Positions 4,642 to 23,144 of a stretch of DNA of 59,789 nt are shown here, piece by piece. The notes below the pieces were generated by a model. That model did no database searches. It was not told the origin of the DNA and saw only the letters and a list, made by a program, of their open reading frames with translations. Every line of letters starts with the position of its first letter. The first letter of the stretch is position 1. Origin of the DNA: Gemmatimonadota bacterium (GTDB taxonomy: Bacteria; Gemmatimonadota; Gemmatimonadetes; Longimicrobiales; RSA9); the NCBI GenBank assembly GCA_007126035.1, contig SLCC01000123.1, positions 1 to 59,789 on the forward strand, read 5' to 3'. Made by a program: the position numbers and the translations under genes.

Positions 4642-4644
4642 AAC

Positions 4645-5484: not shown

Positions 5485-5488
5485 GGCC

Positions 5489-6814: not shown

Positions 6815-7761
6815 GCGAGGCGGTGCGGATCGGAACGCGGGGATCAGCACTGGCCCTGTGGCAGGCGGAGCATGTGGCGGCCAGGCTCCGGTCGCTGCCG
6901 GGTTCGCCGCCGGTGGAGCTTGTGACCATCCAGACCGAGGGCGACAAGATCCAGGATGTCCCGCTCTCGAAGCTCCCTGGCAAGGCTTTCTTCACGAAGG
7001 AGCTGGAGCAGGCGATCCTGGACGGACGGACCGACCTGGCGGTGCACAGCCTGAAGGACGTGGCCACGTCCATGCCGGAGGGGCTGACCCTGGGCGCCAT
7101 CCTCGAGCGTGAGGATCCCCGGGACGCGCTTGTGGCCCGGCCCGGCCTTGCCCTGGAGACGTTGCCCGAGGGCGCCCGGGTAGGGACCAGCAGCCTACGC
7201 CGGGCCGCGTTCCTGAGACGGTGGCGGCCGGACCTGGAGGTGCTGGACCTGCGGGGCAACGTGCCTACCCGCCTCCGTCGTCTCGACGAAGGCGGCTACG
7301 ACGCCATCGTGCTGGCTGCGGCGGGGCTGAAGCGGCTGGGCCTGGAGGCTCGGATCATTGATTACCTGCCCTTCCACGTGCTGCTCCCCGCCGTGTCTCA
7401 GGGCGCGATAGCCGTCCAGATCCGTGCGGCGGACGAGCGCATCGGGCCATGGGTCGGTCGTCTGAATCACGAGCCCACCAGGCTGGCCACCGCCGGGGAG
7501 CGGTCGTTGCTCCGGGAGGTCGAGGGCGGCTGCCAGGTCCCGCTGGGCGCTTACGGCGTGGTCAGCGACGGCAGGCTCGAGATCAGCGCGGCCATGGCCG
7601 CGCTGGACGGCTCAATCTCCGTATCAGGTTCCATCGAGGGTTCGGCGGCCGATGCCGTCATGCTGGGTCGTGGCCTGGCCAGTGACCTCATGGCCCGGGG
7701 GGGAGCGGCGGTCATGGCGGGGATCCGGGGCGTGCTGGATGGCGGTGACCGGCGGGCGTGA
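6811..7761 (+). CDS. hemC: Hydroxymethylbilane synthase (porphobilinogen deaminase)
   Basis: Polymerises four porphobilinogen molecules into hydroxymethylbilane. It begins with the expected IGTRGSALALWQAEHV, has FFTKELEQAILDGRTDLAVHSLKDV with the catalytic Asp region, and carries the dipyrromethane-cofactor cysteine in EVEGGCQVPLGAYG. 316 residues is standard. Both ends overlap neighbours (hemA and hemD), as is usual for this operon order. Confidence 0.97.
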   Translation: MSEAVRIGTRGSALALWQAEHVAARLRSLPGSPPVELVTIQTEGDKIQDVPLSKLPGKAFFTKELEQAILDGRTDLAVHSLKDVATSMPEGLTLGAILEREDPRDALVARPGLALETLPEGARVGTSSLRRAAFLRRWRPDLEVLDLRGNVPTRLRRLDEGGYDAIVLAAAGLKRLGLEARIIDYLPFHVLLPAVSQGAIAVQIRAADERIGPWVGRLNHEPTRLATAGERSLLREVEGGCQVPLGAYGVVSDGRLEISAAMAALDGSISVSGSIEGSAADAVMLGRGLASDLMARGGAAVMAGIRGVLDGGDRRA

Positions 7762-8554
7762 CCTGGCTCTGCGGGGCGTCGGCGTGGTCGTGACGCGGGA
7801 CGACGCCCCGGACTTCCCACTCACCCGTGCACTCGAGGCGCTGGGCGCCCGGGTCCTCTACTGGCCCACCATCCGGCCGGCCCCGCCCCTGGATGCTGGC
7901 CCGCTGGAAGACTCGATCGAGCGCCTGGCGGAATTCGACTGGGCGGCCTTCACCAGTCCCCGGGCGGTGGAGGCGGTGGCCCGGCGTCGCCGGGAGCTGC
8001 CGCCGGAGCTGAGGGTGGCGGTTGTGGGGTGGTCTACGGGCGAGTGGGCTGGCCGTCATGGCTGGCGAGTGGACGTGCTTCCTGAGCGGCAGACGGCCGA
8101 GTCGCTGGTGGCGGAGCTGGACGCGGCGGGCCTGGCCCGTGGCGACCGGGTCTTTTTTCCCGCCAGCGAGATAGCCCGGCCCACGCTCGAGGCAGGCCTG
8201 GCTCGCCTGGGCGCCGAGGTAGTGCGCGTGACGGCGTACCGGACGTTGCCCGCGGAGTTGGACCGGGCGGCTTGCCGTCGTGCCATCGAGGCCGGCCAGG
8301 CCCAGGTGATCAGTCTGACGAGCCCGTCGTCGCTGGAGAACCTGCGCAGGGCCCTGGGCGAGGAGCTTTTCGGACGGGCCTGCGGTGGTGCGGTGATGGC
8401 GGCCATCGGGCCAACCACGGCGGCGGCGGTGAGGGAGAGCGGTTGCGCGCAGGTGATCGAGGCCAGTGACCATTCGTTGAGCGGACTGGTCCGACGGATA
8501 GCGGAATGGGCAGGCGATACCAGTCACAGGAGAGGCGATGAGCTTTCCAGCTAG
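7739..8554 (+). CDS. hemD: Uroporphyrinogen-III synthase
   Basis: Cyclises hydroxymethylbilane to uroporphyrinogen III with inversion of ring D. HemD is poorly conserved; the call rests on the two-lobed pattern ([13 protein letters not shown] at the start, an internal [22 protein letters not shown] repeat-lobe motif, then [12 protein letters not shown] and [15 protein letters not shown]) and on position between hemC and hemB. An ATG overlapping the hemC end is used; a GTG six bases later is equally possible, and the longer upstream open frame reads out of frame through hemC and is not credible. It overlaps hemB by 17 bases. Confidence 0.9.
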
Positions 8555-9539
8555 CAGGCTGCGCCGGTTGCGCAGGAGCGAGGCCTGGCGACGAGCGGTG
8601 CGGGAGACGGGGCTTTCGCCGGCCGACCTGGTCTACCCGTTGTTCATCGTCGAGGGCGACGATGTGAGGAACCCCGTCGCGAGCATGCCGGGTGTGGAGC
8701 AGCTTTCAGTGGGGCAGGCCTCCCGTGAAGCGGCGGAGGTCTACGAGCTGGGTATCCCGGCGGTCATCGTGTTCGGCGTCCCGGACGACGAGCAGAAGGA
8801 TGCTGAGGGGCGCGCCGGTTACGATCCTGGGGGGCTGGTGCCACGGGCCATCAGCGCCATCAGGGCGGAGGCGCCCGACCTCCTGGTGTGGGCTGACGTG
8901 TGCCTCTGCGAGTATACGTCGCACGGTCATTGCGGCGTGCTCGGCCCCGGGGGCGAGATCCTGAACGACGAGACGCTCGACCTCCTGGCCATGGTCGCGC
9001 TGACGTACGCCCGGGCCGGCGCCGACGCCGTGGCGCCCAGCGACATGATGGACGGGAGGGTGGTTGCCATCCGGGAGATACTGGACGACAACCGGCTGTC
9101 CCACGTGCCCATAGTAGCCTACGCCGCCAAGTACGCGTCGGCCTACTACGGCCCGTTCCGTGACGCGGCCCATTCGACGCCAGCCTTCGGTGATCGACGG
9201 GGCTACCAGATGGACCCGGGCAACAGCGAGGAGGCGTTGCGGGAGGTGGAACTGGACATCCAGGAGGGCGCGGACATCGTCATGGTGAAACCGGCGGGCC
9301 CGTACCTGGACATCATCCAGCGGGTGAAGGAGACGTTCAAGATGCCTACGGCCGCCTACCAGGTATCGGGTGAGTACGCCCTGATCAAGGCGGCGGCCGA
9401 GAAGGGCTGGGTGGACGAAGAGCGACTGATGATGGAGAGTGTGCTGGGTATCAAACGGGCCGGTGCGGACCTGGTCCTCACGTACTTTGCGAAGGACGTG
9501 GCACGCGCACTACGGGAGGGGAGCGAGAACAGTGTCTGA
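8538..9539 (+). CDS. hemB: Delta-aminolevulinic acid dehydratase (porphobilinogen synthase), zinc type
   Basis: Condenses two aminolevulinate molecules to porphobilinogen. The Schiff-base lysines are Lys198 ([15 protein letters not shown]) and Lys251 ([12 protein letters not shown]). The metal site reads [14 protein letters not shown] with Cys122, Cys124 and Cys132, the three-cysteine zinc form rather than the aspartate-rich Mg/K form. 333 residues is normal. AGGAG precedes the ATG within the hemD coding end. Confidence 0.97.
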
Positions 9540-10818
9540 GAGCGAGTCGTTGTTCCAGAGGGCGTTGCGGGTGACGCCCGGTGGTGTCAACAGCCCCGTG
9601 CGGGCGTTCGGATCGGTGGGCGGCACGCCGCGGTTCATCGAGAGCGGGGCAGGCTCGGTGATGCGGGACGTGGACGGGAACGAGTACCTGGACTACGTGG
9701 GCTCGTGGGGCCCCATGATCCTGGGCCACGACCACGATGAGGTCCGGGAGGCCATCGGGCGGGCCCTTGCCCGCGGGACGTCGTTCGGCGCGCCGTCGCC
9801 TGGTGAGGTGGAGCTGGCGGAGCTGGTGGTGGAGATGGTGCCGTCGGTGGACCTGGTCCGGTTCGTCAACTCGGGCACCGAGGCCACCATGAGCGCGCTC
9901 CGGGTGGCCAGGGCGGCCACGGAACAGGACAAGGTGATCAAGTTCCGGGGCGGCTATCATGGCCATGCGGATGCCTTCCTGGTCGAGGCCGGCTCCGGTG
10001 CCGCCACGCTGGGCGTGCCGTCCAGCCCGGGCGTGACTGAGGGCGCGGCCCGGGACACGCTGGTGGCGGAGTTCAACGACCTGGACTCGGTCCGCACGCT
10101 CCTCGAGGAGAACACGGGTCAGGTGGCAGCCATCATCCTGGAGCCGGTGGCGGGCAACATGGGGTGCGTGCCGCCCCGTGACGGGTTCCTTGAAGCCGTC
10201 CGCGGGCTGTGCGACGCCCACGGGACTCTCCTCATCTTCGACGAGGTGATGACCGGCTTCAGGCTGGCGCCGGGCGGGGCGCAGGCCCTGTACGGCGTGG
10301 TCCCGGACCTGACCACCATGGGCAAGGTGATCGGTGGCGGGCTGCCGGTGGGTGCCTTCGGCGGACGGGAGTCCCTGATGCGACGAGTGGCACCGGAGGG
10401 ACCGGTCTACCAGGCGGGCACGCTCTCTGGCAATCCGCTGGCGGTGGCGGCGGGGCTGGCCACGTTGTCACACCTGAGGAGCCACCCCGATATCTACGCA
10501 CGTCTCGAGAGCCTGGGCCAGCGGCTCGAGGACGGGTTCAGGCACCTGCTCGAGGGCCGTCACGACCGATTGTCGTGGAACCGGGTGGGCTCCATGGCCA
10601 CCCTCTTCTTCTCTTCCGGTCCGGTGACGGGCTGGGAGAGCGCGTCAGGTGCGGACCGTGGCCTGTTCTCCCGCTATTTCCACGGCATGCTCGAGCGGGG
10701 GATCTACCTCCCGCCCAGCCCCTTCGAGGCGGCTTTCCTGTCGGTGGCCCACACCGAGGCGGACATTGACCGCACCATCCAGGCGGCGGACGAGGTTTTG
10801 GACGAGGTGCTGCGGTGA
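9532..10818 (+). CDS. hemL: Glutamate-1-semialdehyde 2,1-aminomutase
   Basis: PLP enzyme converting glutamate-1-semialdehyde to 5-aminolevulinate. It starts [22 protein letters not shown], typical of the family; the PLP lysine lies in [16 protein letters not shown], preceded by the [12 protein letters not shown] aspartate motif. A GTG start is chosen because GGGAGGGGAG lies six bases upstream and the 428-residue product then matches family length; an in-frame upstream ATG would add about 30 residues read from inside hemB. The start overlaps the hemB stop by eight bases. Confidence 0.96.
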
Positions 10819-11858
10819 GCGCCGGACAGGTGACGCCAGAGCCGCCGTTCCTGGCGGCTTGCCGCCGCAGGCCGGTGCCGCATACGCCCGTCTGGATCAT
10901 GCGCCAGGCGGGCCGCTACCTGCCCGAATACATGGCGGTGCGCCAGAAGGTGGACTTTCTGACGTTGACCAAGACGCCGGACCTGGCTGCGGAGGTAACG
11001 CTCCAGCCCATCCGTCGCTTCGGGATGGACGCGGCCATCCTGTTCAGCGACATCATGACGCCGCTGGAAGGGATGGGCGTGGACCTGGACTTCGACCCGG
11101 GACCCGTGATCCGCAATCCTGTCCGCTCCGCCGGCCACGTGGACGGGTTGCGGGTGGGCGACCCGGAGGAGTCGGTCCCCTTCGTGATGGAGACCATCCG
11201 GATCCTGCGCAGGGAGCTGCCGGCGTCGGCGCCCCTCATCGGCTTCGCCGGCGCGCCCTTCACCACGTACTGCTACACTGTCCAGGGCAGCGGGTCCAAG
11301 ACGTTCATCGAGGCCAAGGCCTTCCTGTACGCGGAGCCGGAGGCGGCGGCCCGGCTCCTGGACAAGATCGCGGAAACCACGAGCCGGTACCTGAGCGCGC
11401 AGGCGGATGCGGGCGCCCAGGCCCTCATGATCTTCGATTCGTGGGCCGGGCTGTTGTCGCCCCGGGATTACCGACGGTTCGCCCTGCCAGCCGTGCAGCG
11501 CATAATCGCCGAGCTGCGAAGCCACAGGCTGCCCCTCATCTACTTCCCGAACCAGGGCTCCACCCTCATGGCATCGGCCCGGGAGGCGGGCGCCGACGTG
11601 ATCGGAGTCGACTGGCGACTCCCGCTGTCGGAGGCACGGTCCGTATTGGGACCGGATCTGGCCGTTCAGGGTAATCTGGACCCGGCAGCGCTGTTCGCGC
11701 CGCGGGACGAGCTGGCGCGCCAGGTCGACCGGGTCCTCGCCGAGGTGGGCGGGGCGCCGGGACATATCTTCAACCTGGGCCACGGTATCGAGCGGACCAC
11801 CGACCCAGCGGCGGTGGCGTTCCTGGTGGACCGGGTGCACGAGCAGACAGCGAGATAG
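10815..11858 (+). CDS. hemE: Uroporphyrinogen decarboxylase
   Basis: Decarboxylates the four acetate side chains of uroporphyrinogen III to give coproporphyrinogen III. PVWIMRQAGRYLPEY is the N-terminal signature with the substrate-binding arginines; ILFSDIMTPLEGMG carries the catalytic aspartate, and the C-terminal FNLGHGIERTTDP motif is intact. 347 residues is typical. A GTG start overlaps the hemL stop (GTGA). Confidence 0.97.
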   Translation: MSAGQVTPEPPFLAACRRRPVPHTPVWIMRQAGRYLPEYMAVRQKVDFLTLTKTPDLAAEVTLQPIRRFGMDAAILFSDIMTPLEGMGVDLDFDPGPVIRNPVRSAGHVDGLRVGDPEESVPFVMETIRILRRELPASAPLIGFAGAPFTTYCYTVQGSGSKTFIEAKAFLYAEPEAAARLLDKIAETTSRYLSAQADAGAQALMIFDSWAGLLSPRDYRRFALPAVQRIIAELRSHRLPLIYFPNQGSTLMASAREAGADVIGVDWRLPLSEARSVLGPDLAVQGNLDPAALFAPRDELARQVDRVLAEVGGAPGHIFNLGHGIERTTDPAAVAFLVDRVHEQTAR

Positions 11859-11865
11859 GAGTCGA

Positions 11866-13269
11866 ATGGCTGATTCGAAGGTGCGCGTGGATCTCGAGAC
11901 GGTGAAGCGGTTCGATCGACCGGGCCCCCGCTACACGTCCTACCCGACGGCTGTGGAGTTCACCGAGGAGGTTGGCGAGGCCGCGTATCGCGAGCGGTTG
12001 GCAATGGCCAACGCCACCCCGGACGCGCCGCTGAGCCTGTACGCGCATCTGCCGTTCTGCGAGCACCGGTGCCTGTTCTGCGGCTGCCACGTGGTGATCA
12101 CGCCCCACATGCCCGTGGCGGAGAAGTACCTGGAGTACCTGAAGCGGGAGCTGGACCTGCTGGCGGAGCGCCTGCCCGACCGGCGATCGGTGGTCCAGAT
12201 GCACTGGGGCGGTGGCACGCCCACCTACTACTCGCCTGCCCAGATCCGGGACCTGTTCGGCCACGTGACGGAGCACTTCGACTTCGTACCGGGCGCGGAG
12301 ATCGCCGTGGAAGTGGACCCGCGGGTCACCAGGCGGGACCACCTGGAGACGATGGCGGAGTTGGGCTTCAACCGGCTGAGCTTGGGCGTCCAGGACCTGA
12401 CCGCCGCCGTCCAGGCGGCAATCACACGGAACCAGACCTTCGATGAGACGGAAAAGCTGGTGCGCCAGGCCCGGGAGGTGGGTTTCACCGAGGGGATCAA
12501 CATCGACCTGATCTACGGCCTGCCGCTCCAGGAGCCGGTCAGCTTCGGCCGGAACCTGGACCAGGTCATAGGGCTGCGGCCGGACCGGGTCGCCGTCTAT
12601 TCCTTTGCCTACGTGCCCTGGATCAGGGGCCACCAGAAGAAGCTTGACCCGGAGTCCCTGCCGTCGGCGGAGGTGAAGCTGGAGCTGTACCTGACGGCCA
12701 TGGAGCGGTTCCTGGATGCCGGCTACCAGCCCATCGGCATGGACCACTTCGCCCTGCCCGACGACGAGCTGGCGGTGGCGGCCAACCAGGGCCGGCTGTA
12801 CCGCAACTTCATGGGCTACACGGTCATGCCCGCGTCGGACATGATCGGTGTGGGCATCTCCGGGATCGGTGAGGTCCAGCACGGGTTCTTCCAGAACGAG
12901 AAGAAGCTGTCCACCTACTACAAGGCCATTGACGACGGCCGGCTGCCCGTGGCCCGGGGCTATCTCCTGGACCCGGATGACCGGATCCGCCAGTACGTGA
13001 TCCAGCAGATCATGTGCAACTTCCGGATCGGGAAGGAGGACGTGGCCCGTCGGTTCGGAGTGGACTTCGACGAGTACCTGGCCTCCTCCCTGGCCCGTCT
13101 CGAGGACGTGAGGGAGGCGGGCTTCGTGGTCCTGGACGACGAGGGGCTGCGCGTGACGCCCCAGGGCCGCGTCTTCGTGCGGAACGTGTGCATGGCCTTC
13201 GACCGGTACCTGATGGAGAAGGAGGCGGCCAGGGACCAGGAGCGGCCAGTCTTCTCCCGGACGGTCTGA
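11866..13269 (+). CDS. hemN: Oxygen-independent coproporphyrinogen III oxidase (radical SAM)
   Basis: Radical SAM enzyme that oxidatively decarboxylates coproporphyrinogen III to protoporphyrinogen IX without oxygen. YAHLPFCEHRCLFCGCHV contains the cluster motif C-x3-C-x2-C followed by the extra cysteine (CGC) that distinguishes true HemN from the HemW haem chaperone. HWGGGTPTY and the QDLTAAVQAAI region follow, and the HemN C-terminal domain is present; 467 residues is right for HemN and long for HemW. It sits seven bases after hemE with an AGGAG site. No oxygen-dependent HemF is seen in the window. Confidence 0.95.
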   Translation: MADSKVRVDLETVKRFDRPGPRYTSYPTAVEFTEEVGEAAYRERLAMANATPDAPLSLYAHLPFCEHRCLFCGCHVVITPHMPVAEKYLEYLKRELDLLAERLPDRRSVVQMHWGGGTPTYYSPAQIRDLFGHVTEHFDFVPGAEIAVEVDPRVTRRDHLETMAELGFNRLSLGVQDLTAAVQAAITRNQTFDETEKLVRQAREVGFTEGINIDLIYGLPLQEPVSFGRNLDQVIGLRPDRVAVYSFAYVPWIRGHQKKLDPESLPSAEVKLELYLTAMERFLDAGYQPIGMDHFALPDDELAVAANQGRLYRNFMGYTVMPASDMIGVGISGIGEVQHGFFQNEKKLSTYYKAIDDGRLPVARGYLLDPDDRIRQYVIQQIMCNFRIGKEDVARRFGVDFDEYLASSLARLEDVREAGFVVLDDEGLRVTPQGRVFVRNVCMAFDRYLMEKEAARDQERPVFSRTV

Positions 13270-13273
13270 CGCC

Positions 13274-14779
13274 ATGAAACGGGTGGTGGTGGTCGGCGGC
13301 GGGATAACAGGCCTCGCCACGGCGCTGCACCTGAGGGACCGGGCAGGTGAGGTTCCGGAGGGCCTCGAGGTCGTGGTCATGGAGGCGGCTGAGCGCCCTG
13401 GTGGCAACGTCCAGACGGACCGGGTCGACGGGTTCACCATCGAGCGGGGACCGAACGGCTTCCTCGACAACGTACCCGCCACCCTGGACCTGGTCCGCAG
13501 GCTCGGCCTCGAGGGTAGCACACAGCAGGCCGACCAGAGCGCCGCCAGACGATTCCTCTTCCGCCACGGCCGGCTCCACCTCCTGCCGTCAGGGCCCGTT
13601 GGCTTCCTGCGTAACCCTGTTCTCAGCATGAGGGGTCGGCTCAGGGTGTTCGGCGAGCCGTTCGCCAGGCGCCGGCCGCCGGGTGTGGACGAGAGCGTGT
13701 TCGACTTCGCCAGCCGCCGCATCGGCGAGGAGGCCGCCGCCGTCCTGGTGGATGCCATGGTCTCGGGGGTCTTTGCGGGGAACGTGCATGAGCTCAGCCT
13801 CCGGAGCGCGTTCCCCAAGATGGCCCAGATGGAGGAAGAGCACGGCGGCCTGGTCAGGGCCATGGTGGCCAAGCTGGCGAGCCGACGGTCCGCCAGGAAG
13901 GAGGCCCGGACCAGGGCAGCGCGTGGCGAAGATGTGGCGCAGCTCACCCAGCCCGGTGGGCCGGCGGGTCCAGGCGGCACGCTCACGTCGTTCCGGAATG
14001 GGCTGGACGTGCTGGTGGATGGGCTGGCCAGGGAAGTGGGTGAGAGTCTACGGCTGCGCAGTCCGGTGACCGGTGTGCAGAAGTCCAGCGCACCCAAAGG
14101 CCCGTCCGGTTCCGGTGACCCGGTGGGGGGCGGTCTGCGGGCAGAGGTGGAGCCGAAGGTCTGGGCTGTCCAGCTGGCCTCAGGCGAGGTGGTCGATGCG
14201 GACGTGGTGGTGGTGGCGGTCCCGTCGCCCAGCGCCGCCAGGCTCATGGAGCCCATGGACCCGGTCCTTGGGCTGGAGGTGGGCGGCATCGAAACGGCGG
14301 GCCTGGCAGTCGTCGCACTGGGGTACCGGGAGGAGGACCTGGACGAGGTGCACGGTTTCGGGTTCCTGGTACCTCGTGGTACCGGGCCGAGGATCCTGGG
14401 CTGTCTGTGGGATTCGAGCATCTTTCCCGGCCGTGCGCCCGCGGGGCATGTGCTCCTGCGTGCCATGATCGGTGGGGCCCATGCCCCGTCCGCTGTGGGC
14501 CAGGAGACGGCGGAGCTGCTGGACGTGGTCCGCCAGGACCTGGACACCACCATGGGCATCCGGGCCGAGCCTGTCCGGAGCCTGGTCTATCGCTGGCCCA
14601 ACGGAATAGCCCAGTACCGGATAGGTCACCAGGCCAGGCTGGACCGGATCCACGCCCGGCTCCGGGAGCATCCGGGTCTCTGGGTGGCGGGGAGCTCGTT
14701 CTATGGCATCAGCATGAACGCCTGCTTCGAGAAGGCGCCCTCCCAGGCTGGCGAAATTCTGGCCTACATCAGACGGTAA
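13274..14779 (+). CDS. hemY: Protoporphyrinogen oxidase, FAD-dependent (HemY type)
   Basis: Flavoprotein oxidising protoporphyrinogen IX to protoporphyrin IX. VVVVGGGITGLATALHLRD is the N-terminal FAD Rossmann motif, followed by ERPGGNVQTDRVDGFTIERGPNGF, strongly typical of HemY. ALVDAMVSGVFAGN and the C-terminal LWVAGSSFYGISMNACFEKA (FAD-contact region) are intact. At 501 residues it is slightly longer than average, with a proline/glycine-rich insertion near residues 215-235 and another near 275-295. It closes the haem operon; with hemN and hemH it defines the protoporphyrin-dependent branch. Confidence 0.94.
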   Translation: MKRVVVVGGGITGLATALHLRDRAGEVPEGLEVVVMEAAERPGGNVQTDRVDGFTIERGPNGFLDNVPATLDLVRRLGLEGSTQQADQSAARRFLFRHGRLHLLPSGPVGFLRNPVLSMRGRLRVFGEPFARRRPPGVDESVFDFASRRIGEEAAAVLVDAMVSGVFAGNVHELSLRSAFPKMAQMEEEHGGLVRAMVAKLASRRSARKEARTRAARGEDVAQLTQPGGPAGPGGTLTSFRNGLDVLVDGLAREVGESLRLRSPVTGVQKSSAPKGPSGSGDPVGGGLRAEVEPKVWAVQLASGEVVDADVVVVAVPSPSAARLMEPMDPVLGLEVGGIETAGLAVVALGYREEDLDEVHGFGFLVPRGTGPRILGCLWDSSIFPGRAPAGHVLLRAMIGGAHAPSAVGQETAELLDVVRQDLDTTMGIRAEPVRSLVYRWPNGIAQYRIGHQARLDRIHARLREHPGLWVAGSSFYGISMNACFEKAPSQAGEILAYIRR

Positions 14780-14899: not shown

Positions 14900-15793
14900 G
14901 TGGCTACACTGCTCAGCAAGGACTTTGTCCGCTCCACGGTAGAGAAGTACCGGGGTCGGCGGGGCGCATTGATCTCGATCCTGGACGAGATCCAGACCAG
15001 GGAGGGCTACCTCCCCGAGACCGCGCTGCGACAGGTCGCGGACCTCACTGGCCGCACGCTGATAGATGTCTTCGGCGTGGCCACCTTCTACAAGGCCTTC
15101 CGTCTGACTCCCCGGGGTATGCACCTGGTGTCGGTGTGCCTGGGCACGGCCTGCCACGTCCGGGGCGCGGGTGGCGTGGCGGCGGCGCTCCAGGACCACC
15201 TGGACCTGCCGGCAGACGGCGGTACCAGCCAGGATGGCGCCTTCACCCTCGAGCCGGTGCGGTGCGTGGGGGCGTGCGCTCTGGGGCCGATCCTGGTTAT
15301 CGACGGGGATTACATGGCGAACGTCAGCGCGACGCGGGCGGTGGCGTTGATCGAGGGCCGCCGTGACGGAGAGGGAGCGGTCTGTCCTACCGAGGACGAG
15401 CGGGTCTTCCCGGTGGAAGTCAACTGCCCCCGGTGCAACCACAGTCTCATGGACCCGGACTACCTCGTGGATGGCTACCCGTCGGTCCGGTTCACCGTGT
15501 CATTCGGCCAGGAGCATGGCTGGCTACGCCTGTCGTCGCTCTACGGCAGCTACGCCATCGAAACGGGTGGTGAGGTCCCCGCCGATACCATCGTCCATTT
15601 CTTCTGCCCCCACTGCCACGGTGACCTGATGGGCGCCTGGAACTGCACGGAATGTGGCGCGCCGATGGTGCCGGTGCTGGTGCAAGGAGGCGGAATGGTG
15701 CAGATCTGCTCGAGGCGCGGCTGCCACAGCCATCTGCTGGACCTGGAAGTTGACCCCGAGGGTCAGACCCCGCCGCCGCCCCTACCGCGCTGA
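14900..15793 (+). CDS. NuoE/HydC-like [2Fe-2S] subunit with an added C-terminal zinc-ribbon domain
   Basis: Residues 1-155 are a thioredoxin-fold NuoE/HoxE/HydC subunit: ILDEIQTREGYLP and VFGVATFYKAF are family motifs, and Cys80, Cys85, Cys122 and Cys126 are spaced for the usual [2Fe-2S] cluster. Residues 170-297 are an extra domain absent from ordinary NuoE (about 160 residues). It holds four cysteine pairs: 176/179 (CPRC), 236/239 (CPHCH), 249/252 (CTEC) and 270/275 (CSRRGC, with His276 and His278 nearby), suggesting two zinc ribbons. A GTG start is used. As first gene of the cluster it probably relays electrons to or from the NuoF-like subunit. The substrate partner of the added domain is unknown. 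Confidence 0.88.
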   Translation: MATLLSKDFVRSTVEKYRGRRGALISILDEIQTREGYLPETALRQVADLTGRTLIDVFGVATFYKAFRLTPRGMHLVSVCLGTACHVRGAGGVAAALQDHLDLPADGGTSQDGAFTLEPVRCVGACALGPILVIDGDYMANVSATRAVALIEGRRDGEGAVCPTEDERVFPVEVNCPRCNHSLMDPDYLVDGYPSVRFTVSFGQEHGWLRLSSLYGSYAIETGGEVPADTIVHFFCPHCHGDLMGAWNCTECGAPMVPVLVQGGGMVQICSRRGCHSHLLDLEVDPEGQTPPPPLPR

Positions 15794-15805: not shown

Positions 15806-18800
15806 ATGGAACTGGAACAGCTCACCTCCCCTGCAGCATTTCGATCCCTCCAGCGCCGCATCGTGGCGGAGCACGACTGGCACGTGCCCCGGATCGTCAT
15901 CCCGGCGGGCACCTGCGGCCAGGCCAGCGGCGCCAACGACCTGATCCGTGTCACCAAGCGTGAGATGATCGCCCGTGGCCTGGTGGGCAAGGTTCAGCTA
16001 CGGGTCACGGGGTGTCACGGGTACTGCGAGTTGGAGCCGTCAGTGCTGGTCGTCCCGTCGGGCACGTTCTACCCGCGGGTGGACATGGCCAACATGGCGC
16101 GGATAGTCGACGCCGTGGCCAATGACGAGGTGCTGGAAGACCTGCTGTACGTGGACGAGGCCACAGGCCGGCGGATCCGTCGCCAGGCGGACATCCCCTT
16201 CTTCCGCCACCAGACGCGGCCGCTCATGTCCCGCAACGAGCGGGCCGATCCCATCCGGCTCATCCACTACATCCGCGAGGGTGGCTACGCGGCGCTGGCC
16301 ACGGTGCTGGAGCGGGGCGATGCGGCATGGGTCATCGATGAGGTGAAGACCTCGGGGCTCCGGGGCCGGGGCGGGGCAGGCTTCCCCACCGGTCTCAAGT
16401 GGGAGATGCTCGCGAGTCAGAACTCGGGCCGCCCCCGCTTCCTGGTCTGCAACGCCGACGAGGGGGACCCGGGCGCCTACATGGACCGGAGCCTTCTGGA
16501 AGGCAACCCCCACAGCATCCTGGAGGGGATGGTCATCGGGGCCTTCGCCACCGGCGCCAGGGAGGGGGTCATCTATGTGCGGGCAGAGTACCCGCTGGCC
16601 ATCAAGCACCTCCTGATCGCCATGCGCAGAGCCCGCTCCACCGGTCTCCTTGGCGAAGACATCCTGGGTACCGGGTTCTCCTTCGACATCGAGCTGGTCA
16701 AGGGCGCTGGCGCCTTCGTCTGCGGTGAGGAGACGGCACTGGTCCGGTCCATCGACGGTCGTGTGGGTGAGCCCCGGCAGCGGCCGCCGTACCCCGTCGA
16801 GCGGGGCATCGAGGGCATGCCCACGATCATCAACAACGTGGAGACCTGGGCCAACATCCCTCACATCATCGACCAGGGCGGGGTTGCCTTCTCCGCTCTG
16901 GGGACCCCGGCCAGCTCCGGGACCAAGATCTTCAGCCTGGTCGGCCAGGTCCGGAACACGGGCCTGGTCGAGGTGCCCATGGGCGTGAGCATTGCCCATA
17001 TCGTGAACGACATTGGTGGCGGCCCGGTTGCGAGCGCACCCATCAAGGCGGTGCAGACGGGCGGTCCCTCGGGCGGCTGCATCCCCGCCAGCAAGTTCGA
17101 CCTGCCCGTGGAGTTCGAGAGCTTGAAGCAGGCGGGCTCGATCATGGGGTCCGGCGGCATGATCGTCATGGACACCAACACCTGCATGGTGGACGTGGCC
17201 CGCTACTTCATGGCGTTCCTGAAGGACGAGTCGTGCGGCAAGTGCTTCACCTGTCGCAAGGGCACTCAACGGTTGTACGAGCTGCTGGACGACATCGTCT
17301 CGGGGCGGGGGACACCCGCGCACATCCCGCTGCTGACCGAGCTGGCCGAGGCGGTGCGGGAGACGTCCATGTGCGGCCTGGGCCGGTCCGCGCCGAACCC
17401 GGTGCTCAGCACCATCGAGTACTTCGCCGAGGAGTATCGGCGCCACATCGAGGACAAGCGCTGCGACGCTTTCGTCTGCCAGCAGCTGGTGGGCGCGCCG
17501 TGCGCTACCGCCTGCCCGGTGGGTACGGAGGCCTGGCGCTACGTGGCCCACATCCAGCGCGGCGAGTTGGCGGAGGCCTACCACGTGATCAGGGAAGCCA
17601 ACCCCTTCCCATCGGTGTGCGCCCGGGTCTGTCACCACCCGTGCGAGGTCCGGTGCCGTGCCGGGCTGGCCGGCGGCGACCCGGTGGCGATCCGGGCGCT
17701 CAAGCGCTTCGTCACCGATGGCAGCGATCCCGCCTCCTTCGTCCCACGGCGCCAGCCCCTGAACGACCGGCCGCCCGTTGCCATCGTTGGTTCCGGGCCC
17801 GCCGGCCTGACCGCCGCCCATTTCCTGTCCCTGAAGGGGCACCGGGTAACCATCATCGAGAAGGAGCGCGAGCCGGGCGGCATGCTCTACAGCGCCATAC
17901 CGCCGTACCGCCTGCCGCGGGAGGTGATCCGCAGAGAGGTTGACGCGCTCCTGGACGAGAACATCACGCTCCGTTGTAACACCGCCCTGGGCCGGGATGT
18001 AACGATCGACAGTCTACTGGACGAGGGCTTCGGCGCCATCTTCGTGGCCATCGGCGCCCATGAGAGCCTGCGCCTGGGGCTGGACGGCGAGGACGTGGAG
18101 GGCGTGATCCCCAGCATCCAGTTCCTCAAGTCGTTCAACCTGGCCGGAGAGCCGCTGGCAAGGGGCAGGGTAGGGGTCATCGGCGGTGGGAACTCCGCCG
18201 TGGACGCAGCCCGCGTGGCGCTGCGGCAGCCTGACGTGGAGAGCGTGACGATCCTCTATCGTCGGACCCGGGCCGAGATGCCCGCCTTCGCCGATGAGAT
18301 CGACGCGGCCATTGAGGAGGGTGTGACGTTGGAAACGCTCGTCACGCCACAGTCGATTCGCGCCCAGTGGGGCCGGCTGGCAGGTCTCGAGTTCCTGCGG
18401 AACCGGCTGGGCGACCGCGACGCCAGCGGCCGGCGTCGCCCCGTACCCATCCAGGGCTCGGAAGAGGTGCTCGCACTGGACACCCTCGTCGTCGCCATCA
18501 GCGAGGGCTCCGACACCGATTGCCTGGCCGTAGTGGGCGCCAACCGCATCGATGTGGACGATAGGGCCCGTACCGTCCGCGTCGACCCCGTGACGCTCCG
18601 GACCAACCGGCCCCAGGTATTCGCTGGCGGGGACGTGACCACCGGGCCGGCCACGGTCATCGACGCCATTGCCGCTGGCAAGCGTGCCGCCACCATGATC
18701 GACCTGTACCTGGCGGGCGCTGAGCTCGAGGTGCCCGGAGAGGCCCTACTGCCCCGGCACTACGTGGAGCCAGTGGCGCTGGATGACGCGTCCGCGGTGC

Positions 18801-19096
18801 GCCTGTCGCCTCGCCGAGTACCGTCGTCGGTGAGGCGAGAGAGCTTCCAGGAAGTGGAGATGGCCTTCACCACCGAGCAGGCCCGGGCCGAAGCGGCGCG
18901 CTGTCTCCGCTGCGACCTGGAGTTCATCGGCGGGGGGGATGATGAGGCCACACTGGCGAGTGTCGGCGTGACCGCGGACCAGGCCCCGTCTGGCGCGGTG
19001 CCGGCGGGGGGTGCGGCCCCCGGCGGCTTCACGGTCGGGCCGGGCGACGAAGGCTCGCATGGAGACGGAGCGAAGCCTCCGGGAGGAGCGTCATGA
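15806..19096 (+). CDS. NuoF/HydB-GltD fusion: NAD(P)H oxidoreductase flavo-iron-sulfur subunit
   Basis: A 1096-residue fusion. Residues 1-100: thioredoxin-like [2Fe-2S] domain (Cys37, Cys70, Cys74). Residues 150-550: NuoF core with FMN/NADH loop GLRGRGGAGFPTGLKW (184-199), NADEGDPGAYMDR, GAFVCGEETALV, an SLBB region, and a [4Fe-4S] site at Cys477, Cys480, Cys483 and Cys523. A HydB-like CDAFVC (553-558) leads into a GltD/NfnB-like module: cysteines 566, 570, 605, 609, 613 and 617 for two clusters, FAD loop VAIVGSGPAGLTAAHFL (about 658), NAD(P)H loop VGVIGGGNSAVDAA (about 789) with YRRTRAEMPA, and FAGGDVTTGPATVIDAI near 939. CLRC (1033-1036) and a Gly-rich tail end the protein. It can probably bind two separate pyridine nucleotides. 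The stop overlaps the next start (ATGA). Confidence 0.9.
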   Translation: MELEQLTSPAAFRSLQRRIVAEHDWHVPRIVIPAGTCGQASGANDLIRVTKREMIARGLVGKVQLRVTGCHGYCELEPSVLVVPSGTFYPRVDMANMARIVDAVANDEVLEDLLYVDEATGRRIRRQADIPFFRHQTRPLMSRNERADPIRLIHYIREGGYAALATVLERGDAAWVIDEVKTSGLRGRGGAGFPTGLKWEMLASQNSGRPRFLVCNADEGDPGAYMDRSLLEGNPHSILEGMVIGAFATGAREGVIYVRAEYPLAIKHLLIAMRRARSTGLLGEDILGTGFSFDIELVKGAGAFVCGEETALVRSIDGRVGEPRQRPPYPVERGIEGMPTIINNVETWANIPHIIDQGGVAFSALGTPASSGTKIFSLVGQVRNTGLVEVPMGVSIAHIVNDIGGGPVASAPIKAVQTGGPSGGCIPASKFDLPVEFESLKQAGSIMGSGGMIVMDTNTCMVDVARYFMAFLKDESCGKCFTCRKGTQRLYELLDDIVSGRGTPAHIPLLTELAEAVRETSMCGLGRSAPNPVLSTIEYFAEEYRRHIEDKRCDAFVCQQLVGAPCATACPVGTEAWRYVAHIQRGELAEAYHVIREANPFPSVCARVCHHPCEVRCRAGLAGGDPVAIRALKRFVTDGSDPASFVPRRQPLNDRPPVAIVGSGPAGLTAAHFLSLKGHRVTIIEKEREPGGMLYSAIPPYRLPREVIRREVDALLDENITLRCNTALGRDVTIDSLLDEGFGAIFVAIGAHESLRLGLDGEDVEGVIPSIQFLKSFNLAGEPLARGRVGVIGGGNSAVDAARVALRQPDVESVTILYRRTRAEMPAFADEIDAAIEEGVTLETLVTPQSIRAQWGRLAGLEFLRNRLGDRDASGRRRPVPIQGSEEVLALDTLVVAISEGSDTDCLAVVGANRIDVDDRARTVRVDPVTLRTNRPQVFAGGDVTTGPATVIDAIAAGKRAATMIDLYLAGAELEVPGEALLPRHYVEPVALDDASAVRLSPRRVPSSVRRESFQEVEMAFTTEQARAEAARCLRCDLEFIGGGDDEATLASVGVTADQAPSGAVPAGGAAPGGFTVGPGDEGSHGDGAKPPGGAS

Positions 19097-19764
19097 TAGA
19101 CCTTCGACTGAACGGCCTGCCGGTCCAGGTGGAGGAGGGCTCGACGCTGCTTGAGGCGGCCGGGATGTACGGCATACCCATCCCCACGCTCTGCCACATG
19201 GACGGCCTGTCGCCGTACGGTGCCTGCCGGCTGTGCGTGGTGGAGGTTGGCGCCGACGGCCGGTCCGAGTTGGTCTCGGCGTGCACCTACCCCGCCCAGG
19301 ATGGGTTGCTGGTGCGGACGGCCTCGAGGCGGGTGCTGCGGGCGAGGCGTATGGTGCTCGAGTTGCTGCTGGCTTCGTGCCCCCAGTCCAAGGCCATCCA
19401 GGACCTGGCGGCTGCGCACGACGTGCGGCGCCAGCGGTTCCACCAGGAACACGAGGACTGCATCCTGTGCGGCCTGTGCGTCCGGATGTGTGCCGAGCAG
19501 ATGACCGGCCACGCCATCGGCTTCCAGGGCCGGGGCGAGCATCGGTCCATAGGCACCCCCTACGACGCCAGGTCGGCGGAGTGCAAGCTGTGCGGTGGCT
19601 GTATCTACGTGTGTCCCGCGTGCAGCCTCCGCTGCACCTATACGGACCCGGAGCGGGCGGTCTGCGGCGGGTGCGCCAACCTGGCCCCGCCCTGCCTGGA
19701 CAAGTCGCAGTTCCACGACATGATGTGCACCATGGACCCATGCGTCGCCTGCGAGATCGGGTGA
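19093..19764 (+). CDS. NuoG/HoxU-like iron-sulfur subunit with a cysteine-rich tail
   Basis: Residues 1-80 form a plant-type [2Fe-2S] ferredoxin domain (Cys34, Cys45, Cys48, Cys64). The middle lacks the His/Cys-ligated cluster of NuoG; LASCPQSKAIQDLAA stands in its place. Residues 123-133 (CILCGLCVRMC) and 164-174 (CKLCGGCIYVC) supply two [4Fe-4S] clusters. Eight further cysteines (177, 181, 191, 194, 201, 212, 217, 220) crowd the last 47 residues, enough for one or two more metal centres. It would be the wire linking the NuoF module to the GltB-like flavoprotein. The molybdopterin domain of full-length NuoG is absent. Confidence 0.88.
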   Translation: MIDLRLNGLPVQVEEGSTLLEAAGMYGIPIPTLCHMDGLSPYGACRLCVVEVGADGRSELVSACTYPAQDGLLVRTASRRVLRARRMVLELLLASCPQSKAIQDLAAAHDVRRQRFHQEHEDCILCGLCVRMCAEQMTGHAIGFQGRGEHRSIGTPYDARSAECKLCGGCIYVCPACSLRCTYTDPERAVCGGCANLAPPCLDKSQFHDMMCTMDPCVACEIG

Positions 19765-19789: not shown

Positions 19790-21421
19790 ATGTCACTGTC
19801 CAGAGTGAATGCAACGGCGGCGACGCTGACCAAGAACAGGACCGAGCACTCGGTGGTGCCCACGTCCGGCATGTGCGTCACCTGTGTGGACGGCTGCATC
19901 GGGATGTGCGAGATCGGCAAGTCCGCATTCCGGGGCCACGAGGTGATCTACCCGCAGCCTTTCGGGTCCATAACCACCGCGGGCGAGAAGGCCTACCCCG
20001 TGGACTACTCGCACCTCACCATCATGGGGACGGCGGTGGGTGCCCACGGCATCGATCCCGACAGCGACAAGGCCATCTTCCCGGCGGTGGACCTGAGTGT
20101 GCGGTTCGGCCACGACGGCGAGCTCAAGTTCCGGTATCCGTGGATCATCCCCGGTATCGGGTCCACCGACATCGCCCGTAACAACTGGGAAGGCCTGGCC
20201 ATAGGGTCCGCCATCGCCGGGACGGGGCTGACCATCGGCGAGAACGTGGTGGGCATGGACCCGGAGGCGGTGATCCGCAACGGGTCGATCCGGAAGACCG
20301 TGGACCTGGAGCGCCGGGTCCGCCTCTTCACCGAGCACCAGCGGGATGGGTACGGCGCCATCGTGCTGCAGGGCAACATCGAGGACACGCGCCTCGGGGT
20401 GCAGGAGTACGCCATCCGGGAACTGGGTGTCGAGTGCATCGAGCTGAAATGGGGGCAGGGCGCCAAGAACATCGGCGGAGAGGTGAAGATCCGGAGCCTG
20501 GAGAAGGCGCAGCTCCTGCACGAGCGGGGGTACGTGGTGCTGCCCGATCCCACCCAGGAACACGTCATCCAGGCCTTCCGGCGGGGTGCCTTCAAGGAGT
20601 TCGAGCGGCATTCCCGCGTCGGCATGGTGACGGAGGAGGACTTCGCCCGTCGGGTCGAGGAGCTGAGGGCCGCGGGCGCCCGCTACATCTTCCTCAAGAC
20701 CGGCGCGTTCCGGCCCGCGGACCTGGCCCGGGCTGTAGTCTTCGCCTCCCGCTACGAGCTGGACCTGCTCACGGTGGACGCTGCCGGCGGCGGTACGGGC
20801 ATGAGCCCGTGGCGCATGATGAACGAGTGGGGCGTCCCGCCCCTGGAACTCCATTCCCTGCTGCACCGCTATGCTTCGCGGATCCACGAGCGAGGTGGTC
20901 ACCTGCCCGCCATCGCCGTGGCCGGAGGGTTCACCTTCGAGGACCAGATCTTCAAGGGGCTGGCCCTGGGCGCCCCCTACGCCAAGCTGGTGGGCATGGC
21001 CCGGGCGCCACTGGCCGCCGCCATGGTGGGCAAGACCATCGGCCGGGCCATCGACGACGGGAACCTGCCCGTCTACGTCGAGCGCTTCGGCCGGACCCGT
21101 GAAGAGATCTTCGTCACCGCCGCGGAGCTCCGGCACGAGCTGGGCGAGGAAGAGTACCAGCGCCTGCCGGCGGGCGCCCTGGGCCTCGTCACCTACTACG
21201 AGCGGCTAGGCCAGGGGCTGCGCCAGATAATGGCCGGCTCCCGCAAGTTCGGCCTCGAGCACGTCTCCCGCCATGATGTGGCGGCCCTGACCCGGGACGC
21301 CGCCGAGATTACCGGCCTGCCGTACGTGATGGATGCCGACGCCGAGGAGGTCGAGCGGCTCCTGGAGAGCATGCCCCGGGAGGGCGTGCCCCGGGAGGGC
21401 GTGCCAGCCGGTACGGGGTAG
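19790..21421 (+). CDS. GltB-like FMN-binding oxidoreductase (glutamate synthase family, not a canonical GOGAT)
   Basis: A 543-residue TIM-barrel flavoprotein of the glutamate synthase central/FMN family. GIGSTDIARNNWEGLAIG and LLTVDAAGGGTGMSPWRMM align with the FMN and 2-oxoglutarate regions of GltB. It lacks the N-terminal glutaminase domain, and the CHxxxCPVGVATQ [3Fe-4S] motif of glutamate synthases is missing at the expected place (about 375-420). Instead four cysteines sit near the N-terminus, MCVTCVDGCIGMCEIG (29, 32, 36, 40), plausibly a [4Fe-4S] site. The end has a short tandem repeat (REGVP twice). Genomic databases often call such proteins glutamate synthase, but reaction and substrate are unknown; the upstream genes suggest it is the catalytic partner of an NAD(P)H/ferredoxin complex. 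Confidence 0.85.
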   Translation: MSLSRVNATAATLTKNRTEHSVVPTSGMCVTCVDGCIGMCEIGKSAFRGHEVIYPQPFGSITTAGEKAYPVDYSHLTIMGTAVGAHGIDPDSDKAIFPAVDLSVRFGHDGELKFRYPWIIPGIGSTDIARNNWEGLAIGSAIAGTGLTIGENVVGMDPEAVIRNGSIRKTVDLERRVRLFTEHQRDGYGAIVLQGNIEDTRLGVQEYAIRELGVECIELKWGQGAKNIGGEVKIRSLEKAQLLHERGYVVLPDPTQEHVIQAFRRGAFKEFERHSRVGMVTEEDFARRVEELRAAGARYIFLKTGAFRPADLARAVVFASRYELDLLTVDAAGGGTGMSPWRMMNEWGVPPLELHSLLHRYASRIHERGGHLPAIAVAGGFTFEDQIFKGLALGAPYAKLVGMARAPLAAAMVGKTIGRAIDDGNLPVYVERFGRTREEIFVTAAELRHELGEEEYQRLPAGALGLVTYYERLGQGLRQIMAGSRKFGLEHVSRHDVAALTRDAAEITGLPYVMDADAEEVERLLESMPREGVPREGVPAGTG

Positions 21422-21511: not shown

Positions 21512-22168
21512 ATGATCTCAAGAGCGCACTTCTGTCTCACAGTGGGAGCGATCACGGCGTTTGCCCTCTCGTGCGGCGAGCTGTCAGCCCAGGACGTGTG
21601 GGTGAGAGGTGTCCACGCCAGCTCCAGTCAGGATTCGTTCGAGCGGAGCGGCGGCTTCGGCCTTGGCGCGGCGATTCCTGCCAGCGAAAGGTTCGATGTC
21701 CAGATAGCTCTCAAGTGGACCGCGAGCGAGTCCGATCGTCACGGTCTGGCGTGTAGCAGCTACAACCCCAGACCGCTGGACTGCGAGGAGGACAGACTCA
21801 GTGAGAGGGTGCGGGTTCGCAGCTTCCGGATCTCGGCCCATGGCGCCGCCGATTTGCTGGAGTACCTGCACGCGGACCTCGGCCTCGGGGTATCGAGCAA
21901 TGAGCTGACCGGGGCCAGCCGACCGGTGTCATCGAGCCGTATCGGCAACCTCTATGTTCCGCCCACGGCACACATGGGCGTCTTCCTCCAGACCGGTGTG
22001 GCCTGGTCGCCCGTGGACGAGCTACCGCTCAAGCTGGTACTCGACGCTGCCGGCCACTGGATCTTCTTCGACGGTTGCAGGACCACGGGCTCGTGGCACG
22101 CTCCATTCTGCGGCGGAAGTCTGATCACGGAACTGTCAGTGGGGGCTTCGTACCGGGTCTTCCGATGA
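21512..22168 (+). CDS. Exported four-cysteine protein, paralogue A
   Basis: Unrecognised 218-residue protein with an N-terminal signal peptide (CLTVGAITAFALSCGELSAQ, likely cleaved after SAQ). The rest alternates polar and hydrophobic residues and ends in SVGASYRVFR, consistent with a small outer-membrane beta-barrel. Four cysteines in the mature part match those of the paralogue downstream of tRNA-Leu: C-x9-C in ACSSYNPRPLDC and C-x10-C in GCRTTGSWHAPFCGG, suggesting two disulfides. PPxxxMGVF is also shared. No ribosome site is obvious. Function unknown. Confidence 0.8.
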   Translation: MISRAHFCLTVGAITAFALSCGELSAQDVWVRGVHASSSQDSFERSGGFGLGAAIPASERFDVQIALKWTASESDRHGLACSSYNPRPLDCEEDRLSERVRVRSFRISAHGAADLLEYLHADLGLGVSSNELTGASRPVSSSRIGNLYVPPTAHMGVFLQTGVAWSPVDELPLKLVLDAAGHWIFFDGCRTTGSWHAPFCGGSLITELSVGASYRVFR

Positions 22169-22351
22169 ACGGCTCCCGGCCCGCCGACCCGGGGGCCGAC
22201 CAGGCGCCCCGCACCCGCTGACTTCTCAGACGACTTTGCAGGCGGACTGATAGTGAGGGCTCGCTCCGTCGCGATATCGAGTAGCGCGAGGAGCGTGTCC
22301 GGGCGATCTTCCAGGAGACAGGCGCCGGCCTTGCGCTCGTGGAGACTTCGC

Positions 22352-22380
22352 TTGTCCGGAAGCCCGGAATGCCCCATCAT
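22352..22380 (+). promoter_or_regulatory. Predicted promoter for tRNA-Leu
   Basis: TTGTCC (22352-22357) and CATCAT (22375-22380) are 17 bases apart, placing a start near 22387, five bases before the mature tRNA. The short predicted leader fits a tRNA gene. Confidence 0.45.
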
Positions 22381-22391
22381 CCGTCGTGTGC

Positions 22392-22474
22392 GCCGGGGTG
22401 GCGAAATGGCAGACGCGGGGGACTTAAAATCCCCTGGGCTTCGGCCCGTGTGGGTTCGACCCCCACCCCCGGCA
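22392..22474 (+). tRNA. tRNA-Leu (anticodon UAA)
   Basis: An 83-base class II tRNA. The acceptor stem is GCCGGGG (22392-22398) with CCCCGGC (22467-22473) and discriminator A. The anticodon stem GGGGA/TCCCC encloses loop CTTAAAA, anticodon TAA at 22425-22427. A long variable arm (TGGGCTTCGGCCCG region) and the T-arm with GGTTCGACC follow, both typical of leucine tRNAs. The 3' CCA is not encoded. The next coding start is 19 bases past the tRNA end. Confidence 0.97.
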
Positions 22475-22493
22475 TGAACCGCAATTGGCCGCA

Positions 22494-23144
22494 ATGTCGA
22501 CAGTGCGTAACATCGTCCGTTTTCTGGCCCTTCTGATCGTGCTGGTCCTCGCGAGCGCGGGTCCCGGCGCCGCTCAGAGCCTCCGGGTGTCGGGGCTCAG
22601 CTCTGCTTCACCTGAGCCGCTCCTCGATGGCGTCACGGGGTTCGCCGTGTTCGGAGACGTGGACGTCATGTCCTGGCTGATCGTGTTCGCCGGGATCACA
22701 CGCAGCACTGCCGACTCGGAGCGGCAGGGGACGGCCTGCGGGGTGTTCCGGCCGTATCCGGTGGATTGCACGACGGACCGGCTGGCGGAGCACGTCTCCC
22801 TGCTCAGCTACCGAGTTGGCGGCCAACTCTCCGTCGATGCTTTCGAATCCGTACGGGTTGGCGCCGGTCTCGGCGGATCGCTGAACGAGATCCGGTCCAG
22901 GAGCAGAGGGGTAACGTCCAACCTGCCGGGCACGCTCTACTCGCCTCCGAGCGGTAACATGGGCGTGTTCCTGGAAGCCCGTGCGGCCTGGAGCTTGCTC
23001 TACAACCTGGCGCTGGTGGCGAGCGCTACCCATAGCTGGATCTCCTTCCAGGGGTGCCGGGACAACGATCTGGACTACGCGCCCTTCTGCGGTGGCGAGC
23101 GGTTAGTCGAAGTCCACCTGGGGCTCGCCTACAGACTGTTCTGA
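22494..23144 (+). CDS. Exported four-cysteine protein, paralogue B
   Basis: 216-residue paralogue of the protein upstream of tRNA-Leu. The signal peptide is clear (FLALLIVLVLASAGPGAAQ). Shared features are CGVFRPYPVDC (C-x9-C), YSPPSGNMGVFLE, GCRDNDLDYAPFCGG (C-x10-C) and a C-terminal LGLAYRLF typical of outer-membrane barrels that end in phenylalanine. The ATG is chosen over an in-frame TTG nine bases earlier. With only 19 bases after the tRNA it is probably made from a tRNA-mRNA precursor or on a very short leader. Function unknown. Confidence 0.8.
   Translation: MSTVRNIVRFLALLIVLVLASAGPGAAQSLRVSGLSSASPEPLLDGVTGFAVFGDVDVMSWLIVFAGITRSTADSERQGTACGVFRPYPVDCTTDRLAEHVSLLSYRVGGQLSVDAFESVRVGAGLGGSLNEIRSRSRGVTSNLPGTLYSPPSGNMGVFLEARAAWSLLYNLALVASATHSWISFQGCRDNDLDYAPFCGGERLVEVHLGLAYRLF

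Follow-up and report, generated by a model that had tools for sequence, protein, structure and literature searches.

Glutamate synthases (GltS), both the canonical GltB/GltD enzymes of Escherichia coli and Azospirillum and the ferredoxin-dependent Fd-GltS, are built on an FMN barrel that carries K-x2-QGAK and GGTG segments and is followed by a helical segment. A second group of described systems, the Bfu family (HydABC, NiFe-Bfu, Nfn-Bfu/Stn, and Nuo-Bfu), is encoded by operons that also include the subunit acting on a third substrate; the survey of this family names no GltB-like FMN protein as such a subunit, and the word glutamate does not occur in it (PMC9304861). Elements of both groups are combined in the window, that is, the whole analyzed stretch of 59,789 nucleotides from a Gemmatimonadota bacterium. 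Here, the GltB-like gene closes a four-gene operon, following genes E, F (15806-19096), and G, with intergenic gaps of 12 bp (E/F), -4 bp (F/G, the start of G overlapping the stop codon of F), and 25 bp (G/GltB-like). The three upstream genes had been missed in the initial annotation. The operon contains the following features:

14900..15793, + strand: subunit E, NuoE/HydC-like [2Fe-2S] protein (Pfam 2Fe-2S_thioredx, PF01257, 1e-42; C80, C85, C122, C126)
15806..17455, + strand: subunit F, residues 1-550, NuoF/HydB-like NADH-FMN domain with an N-terminal thioredoxin-like domain and the B1 cluster cysteines (Complex1_51K, PF01512, 7e-45; NADH_4Fe-4S, PF10589, 5e-31)
17444..17479, + strand: B2 [2Fe-2S] ligand signature H547-x5-C553-x4-C558 (with C460) in F, invariant in 66/66 sequences (ligands from PMC9304861)
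17456..19096, + strand: subunit F, residues 551-1096, GltD-like tail consisting of a DPD_II two-[4Fe-4S] domain and an FAD and NAD(P)H domain (Fer4_20, 4e-23; Pyr_redox_2, 4e-26)
19093..19764, + strand: subunit G, short NuoG/HoxU/BfuA-like protein with a [2Fe-2S] and two [4Fe-4S] motifs and a Cys-rich C-terminus (Fer2_4, 2e-16; Fer4)
19790..21421, + strand: GltB-like FMN-barrel subunit, open reading frame of 543 aa (FMN TIM-barrel fold; located in the operon in all relatives with flanking sequence)
19874..19909, + strand: C29-x2-C32-x3-C36-x3-C40, proposed [4Fe-4S] site of the GltB-like subunit
20447..20467, + strand: K220-W-G-Q223-G-A-K226, equivalent by alignment to IKVAQGAK of E. coli GltB, invariant in 47/47 sequences down to 40% identity
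20777..20830, + strand: D-A-A-G-G-G-T-G-M-S-P-W-R-M-M-N-E-W, residues 330-347, FMN/substrate loop (GGTG, SPW, MM, and W347 invariant)

The Pfam scan of the GltB-like protein yielded a match to Glu_synthase (PF01645, residues 279-409, E 5e-12) and none to the GATase_2 and GXGXG domains; the NCBIfam scan returned no matches. The relationship of the barrel to E. coli GltB is distant (profile probability 70%, 18% identity), and the profile alignment places IKVAQGAK of GltB opposite LKWGQGAK, the loop YDGGTGASP opposite AAGGGTGMSP, and VDGG of beta-7 opposite VAGG. The K-x2-Q-x2-K strand of GltS presumably contributes to 2-oxoglutarate binding. Among 47 sequences spanning 40-100% identity, the invariant positions include K220, Q223, K226, E231, R246, H274, K303, GGTG, and R405.

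In the same alignment, the [3Fe-4S] loop of E. coli GltB (CKYLRICHLNNC) falls opposite the Cys-free stretch AAMVGKTIGR. The entire protein contains five cysteines (29, 32, 36, 40, and 216), which rules out a hidden [3Fe-4S] site assembled from other cysteines. The four N-terminal cysteines are retained in all 80 close relatives (the best 80 of at least 587, 72-78% identity; one has Ser at C32) and in 46/46 further homologues sampled from one phylum (40-78% identity). The genome of origin, which is 98% complete, showed no matches to GATase_2 (PF00310) or GXGXG (PF01493). The sequence observation of the initial annotation, an FMN barrel without the [3Fe-4S] motif or an encoded glutaminase and with a new N-terminal cysteine set, is thus confirmed, and the complete [3Fe-4S] site from other cysteines that it had named as a refutation is excluded. 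Truncation of a canonical GltB by a sequencing error or pseudogene formation was ruled out, given the similar length and >72% identity of the protein in 80 genomes.

AF2 modeling of the GltB-like subunit from 80 sequences gave a mean pLDDT of 77.6 and a pTM of 0.81, with residues 1-67 unreliable; an earlier model from 33 sequences was poor (pLDDT 63). A Foldseek search with the AF2 model retrieved FMN TIM-barrels (glycolate oxidase, lactate oxidase, flavocytochrome b2, and type 2 IPP isomerase), with FMN hydroxy-acid oxidases rather than GltS in the first ranks and no GltS chains among the top 50 matches listed. A PDB sequence search with the profile of the GltB-like family revealed nothing meaningful. 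FMN 2-hydroxy-acid oxidases carry the catalytic His in an SNHG(A/G)RQ motif, which is missing here, the 543-aa sequence containing no NHG.

The other three subunits correspond to components of the Bfu family, namely, E to BfuC with the [2Fe-2S] cluster C1, F to BfuB with the B1 and B2 ligands, and G to a short BfuA (PMC9304861). The cluster-binding cysteines of E are conserved in 63-64 of 64 relatives, and its best PDB match is 7t2r_C, subunit C of a NiFe-hydrogenase. E has, in addition, a zinc-ribbon-like C-terminal extension (15425-15790) with eight conserved cysteines (C176, C179, C236, C239, C249, C252, C270, and C275), unlike ordinary NuoE/HydC. Subunit G comprises just 223 aa and, compared with BfuA, has its own Cys-rich tail; each of its 21 cysteines is 99-100% conserved, and C34, C45, C48, and C64, which we assign to the A1 [2Fe-2S] cluster of a BfuA homologue, are invariant. 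G (best PDB match, 9mqx_A) matches the ferredoxin part alone, without the H-cluster domain of the [FeFe]-hydrogenase A2/A3 type.

Among PDB chains, F is closest to bifurcating HydB (7t2r_B, NiFe-HydB, 4e-185), with complex I NuoF chains ranking below (~1e-99 to 1e-83). The B2 ligands of NiFe-BfuB are C438, C476 or Thr, H525, C531, and C536, and the B2 His is missing from non-bifurcating HydB homologues (Schut et al., PMC9304861). With four of these five ligands compared, C460, H547, C553, and C558 of F show spacing identical to that of C438, H525, C531, and C536, and this His/Cys set shows no variation among the 66 full-length F proteins, including those with a GltD tail. Likewise invariant are the B1 [4Fe-4S] cysteines C477, C480, C483, and C523 and, in the N-terminal thioredoxin-like domain, at the candidate B5 [2Fe-2S] site, C70 and C74; C37 is present in 46/66 proteins, and 12 more have a cysteine at the adjacent position. 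The ferredoxin-type B3/B4 domain (IPR017896) is absent from F of the window, where GltD takes its place, and we therefore assign this copy to Bfu only with reserve.

The tail of F varies among relatives: 48 of the 66 proteins have a GltD-like tail and 18 a two-[4Fe-4S] ferredoxin tail (B3/B4). The two types are interleaved on the GltB+G tree, with 13 changes by parsimony, at least three of which are forced by strongly supported branches. By this comparison, the GltB end of the putative complex is constant and the predicted low-potential end is exchangeable. A fusion of NuoF to DPD_II and an FAD/NAD(P) domain in place of B3/B4 is also found in the Sub-type I BfuB of Hydrogenedentota [FeFe]-hydrogenases (PMC11406978), although its partner in those enzymes is a hydrogenase BfuA that carries an H-cluster. 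The Sporomusa-type Nfn (Stn; PMC7483475) is likewise a single NADH/NADP/ferredoxin enzyme with NuoE, NuoF, and GltD modules, but it carries GltD on the A subunit (StnC) instead of the NuoF subunit and has no GltB-like subunit.

A scan of species genomes identified at least 587 relatives of the GltB-like protein. The best 80 come from more than a dozen phyla, including Planctomycetota, Zixibacteria, Bacteroidota, Acidobacteriota, Myxococcota, Thermodesulfobacteriota, Calditrichota, and Ignavibacteriota, and the E-F-G-GltB order was found in every one of these whose contig gives enough flank. In its own phylum, the gene is rare (4/298 genomes), in keeping with horizontal transfer; a binning artefact was ruled out because the operon is likewise present in the three other carriers of the phylum, whose genomes each consist of a single contig. 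The wider family is represented in 98/198 sampled Thermodesulfobacteriota genomes. No published description of an E-F-G-GltB enzyme was found in the literature searched, and the four-protein enzyme is apparently both widespread and undescribed. Many homologues stand alone, with no NADH module nearby, which indicates that the GltB-like enzyme does not strictly require one. Such stand-alone "glutamate synthase-related proteins" from Peptoclostridium acidaminophilum (EAL2_RS12730) and Acetoanaerobium noterae share 38% identity with the GltB-like subunit over nearly the full length, as well as the same four cysteines and many motifs, but the GGE after QGAK is lost. In A. noterae, the flanks of the gene (region L092:8946-13933) encode two MinD/Mrp-like ATPases that carry ferredoxin motifs, as well as two NifX/NifB-like proteins, of which one was confirmed (PF02579).

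Several other genes recur around the operon. A GAF histidine kinase and an NtrC-like sigma-54 response regulator are encoded within 3.2 kb upstream in 35/53 loci (e.g., L048:455-3530), and a small Cys-rich protein with two LCxxC...C...WHCEEY repeats and no Pfam match is encoded directly upstream of E in 35/57 loci (e.g., L048:3852-4187 and L033:5102-5443), although not in the window. In another genome of the same phylum (L110:10348-11861), the operon is followed by genes resembling the alpha subunit of nicotinamide nucleotide transhydrogenase (identified by eye), neighbors pointing to NADPH.

Genes of nitrogen metabolism are frequent neighbors. In six loci of the 80 close relatives, the operon has a glutamate dehydrogenase gene no more than 420 bp away, and these genes belong to two different subfamilies. 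For the wider family, 78 Thermodesulfobacteriota loci were surveyed within 6.5 kb, and at least one gene for NrpR (14 loci), glutamine synthetase (10), an ammonium transporter (7), or glutamate dehydrogenase (4) was found in 32 of them; the chance expectation for glutamine synthetase in the 78 loci, estimated from gene copy number, is ~1. The NrpR genes are mostly divergent and within 500 bp. NrpR is a nitrogen regulator that responds to 2-oxoglutarate in methanogens.

Across Thermodesulfobacteriota, the family is present in 21/66 genomes with canonical GltS versus 77/132 without it (odds ratio 0.33, p=5e-4, ignoring kinship). In a separate count, 42 of 50 carriers have neither GATase_2 nor a full GltB. 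Canonical GltS occurs in only about 27-30% of the genomes of the window's own phylum, so that its absence there says little and replacement of GltS within the phylum was an uninformative comparison. The genome of origin also encodes glutamate dehydrogenase homologues, with which an ammonia-using enzyme would be partly redundant.

A related gene may already have entered the literature under another name. In two Geobacter studies, GSU1239, part of the RpoN-linked five-gene operon GSU1235-1239, is taken as GOGAT (PMC2725144, PMC6964889), and its annotation is "glutamate synthase-related protein" (PMC2725144). The annotation pattern of this operon (two hypotheticals, a pyridine nucleotide-disulphide oxidoreductase, an Fe-S protein, and the glutamate synthase-related protein) fits the E-F-G-GltB operon, sigma-54 regulators occur with many relatives, and GSU1239 may belong to this family. 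The published GOGAT reaction of Geobacter would then rest on a protein that is possibly of the E-F-G-GltB type.

In our best reading, to which we assign a probability of roughly 0.5, the operon encodes a glutamate synthase of a divergent kind that is driven by a Bfu-type NADH module and probably takes free ammonia as its nitrogen donor. The four gene products would form one soluble complex in which E, F, and G make up an NADH-oxidizing module of the Bfu/HydABC type (as subunits C, B, and a shortened A) and the GltB-like subunit serves as the "third substrate" enzyme. Electrons would leave F (FMN, B1), travel along the Fe-S chain of G to the N-terminal CxxCxxxCxxxC cluster, and finally reach the FMN of the GltB-like subunit, where 2-oxoglutarate and free ammonia would be converted to glutamate, or the reverse. 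Because no GltS-type glutaminase is encoded in the genome, it is difficult to envisage a glutamate synthase that consumes glutamine; provided that the enzyme forms glutamate, free ammonia is the probable source of nitrogen.

These findings bear unevenly on what the initial annotation had made of its observation. The different electron entry route that it suggested gains support from the conserved CxxCxxxCxxxC motif in place of the [3Fe-4S] cluster and from the NADH/Fe-S module in the same operon. The proposal of a probably different reaction is weakened by the invariant K-x2-Q-G-A-K strand, the nitrogen-gene neighbors, and the negative association with GltS, calculated ignoring kinship. Its warning that a glutamate synthase label would mislead holds in part: the GltB-like subunit lacks three defining features of canonical GltS (the glutaminase, the GXGXG domain, and the [3Fe-4S] loop), has a four-Cys N-terminal motif and an extra NADH module instead, and must not be filed as such, but the best reading is still a glutamate-forming or glutamate-oxidizing enzyme.

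The complex might, more tentatively, be an electron-bifurcating, ammonia-dependent glutamate synthase. Electrons from NADH would be split at the FMN of F, and the low-potential arm would be the GltD domain (NADP(H)) in the window and ferredoxin-type clusters in relatives, so that reductive amination of 2-oxoglutarate would drive the reduction of NADP+ in GltD-tailed and of ferredoxin in ferredoxin-tailed enzymes. The energy for this step could come from the relatively high potential of the 2-oxoglutarate/glutamate couple, to which the oxidation of NADH would be linked. By textbook potentials, however, the formation of glutamate from NADH is downhill without bifurcation, and F of the window has, instead of a ferredoxin tail, the GltD tail that is the usual NADPH entry of GltS. 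The same complex and chemistry could therefore operate as a linear NAD(P)H-dependent glutamate synthase, with the NADH module, together with the GltD tail, simply feeding in electrons from NAD(P)H. We consider this version rather doubtful, given that even GltD-tailed F proteins retain without exception the B2 His/Cys set associated with bifurcating BfuB (PMC9304861) and that the ferredoxin tail is kept in 18 relatives.

The substrate itself could differ, the GltB-like subunit acting on another 2-oxo acid, a 2-hydroxy acid, an imine, or a quinone. The remoteness of the barrel from GltB, the first rank of FMN hydroxy-acid oxidases in the fold search, and the lack of a glutaminase in the genome are all compatible with this, but the nitrogen-assimilation neighbors across many lineages, the invariant K-x2-QGAK strand of GltB, and the missing hydroxy-acid oxidase motif make it unlikely. 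Finally, the histidine kinase and NtrC-like regulator upstream of 35/53 loci and the small Cys-rich protein upstream of E in 35/57 could be taken to mean that the complex is a nitrogen- or redox-sensing flavoprotein without metabolic turnover, read out by the kinase or the sigma-54 regulator. A sensor would hardly need a complete NADH module rich in Fe-S motifs, and the regulator genes, which in the window and at many other loci do not adjoin the operon, look as though they control it; we regard a sensory role as highly improbable.

If the glutamate synthase reading is correct, an ammonia-assimilating enzyme is being misread or missed by genome annotation and metabolic models in a large bacterial group, on the scale of about half of the sampled Thermodesulfobacteriota genomes for the wider family and of the at least 587 relatives in the species-genome collection. 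The Bfu enzymes would gain a nitrogen-metabolism branch. With bifurcation, the generation of reduced ferredoxin or NADPH would acquire a new exergonic partner reaction, the reduction of 2-oxoglutarate, and nitrogen assimilation would become an energy-conserving step in many bacteria, tied directly to electron splitting.

Two consecutive genes in the window (21512-23144) encode related secreted or outer-membrane-like proteins of ~219 aa (WISFQGCR/WIFFDGCR...APFCGG), the first of which has no Pfam match. Directly upstream of the operon, on the same strand and ending 120 bp before it, lies a nearly complete haem biosynthesis cluster (3529-14779), in which genes for ferrochelatase, a cytochrome-assembly-like protein, HemA, HemC, a HemD-like protein, HemB, HemL, HemE, HemN, and protoporphyrinogen oxidase were identified by visual inspection of the translations. 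Glutamate is the starting compound of the C5 haem pathway.
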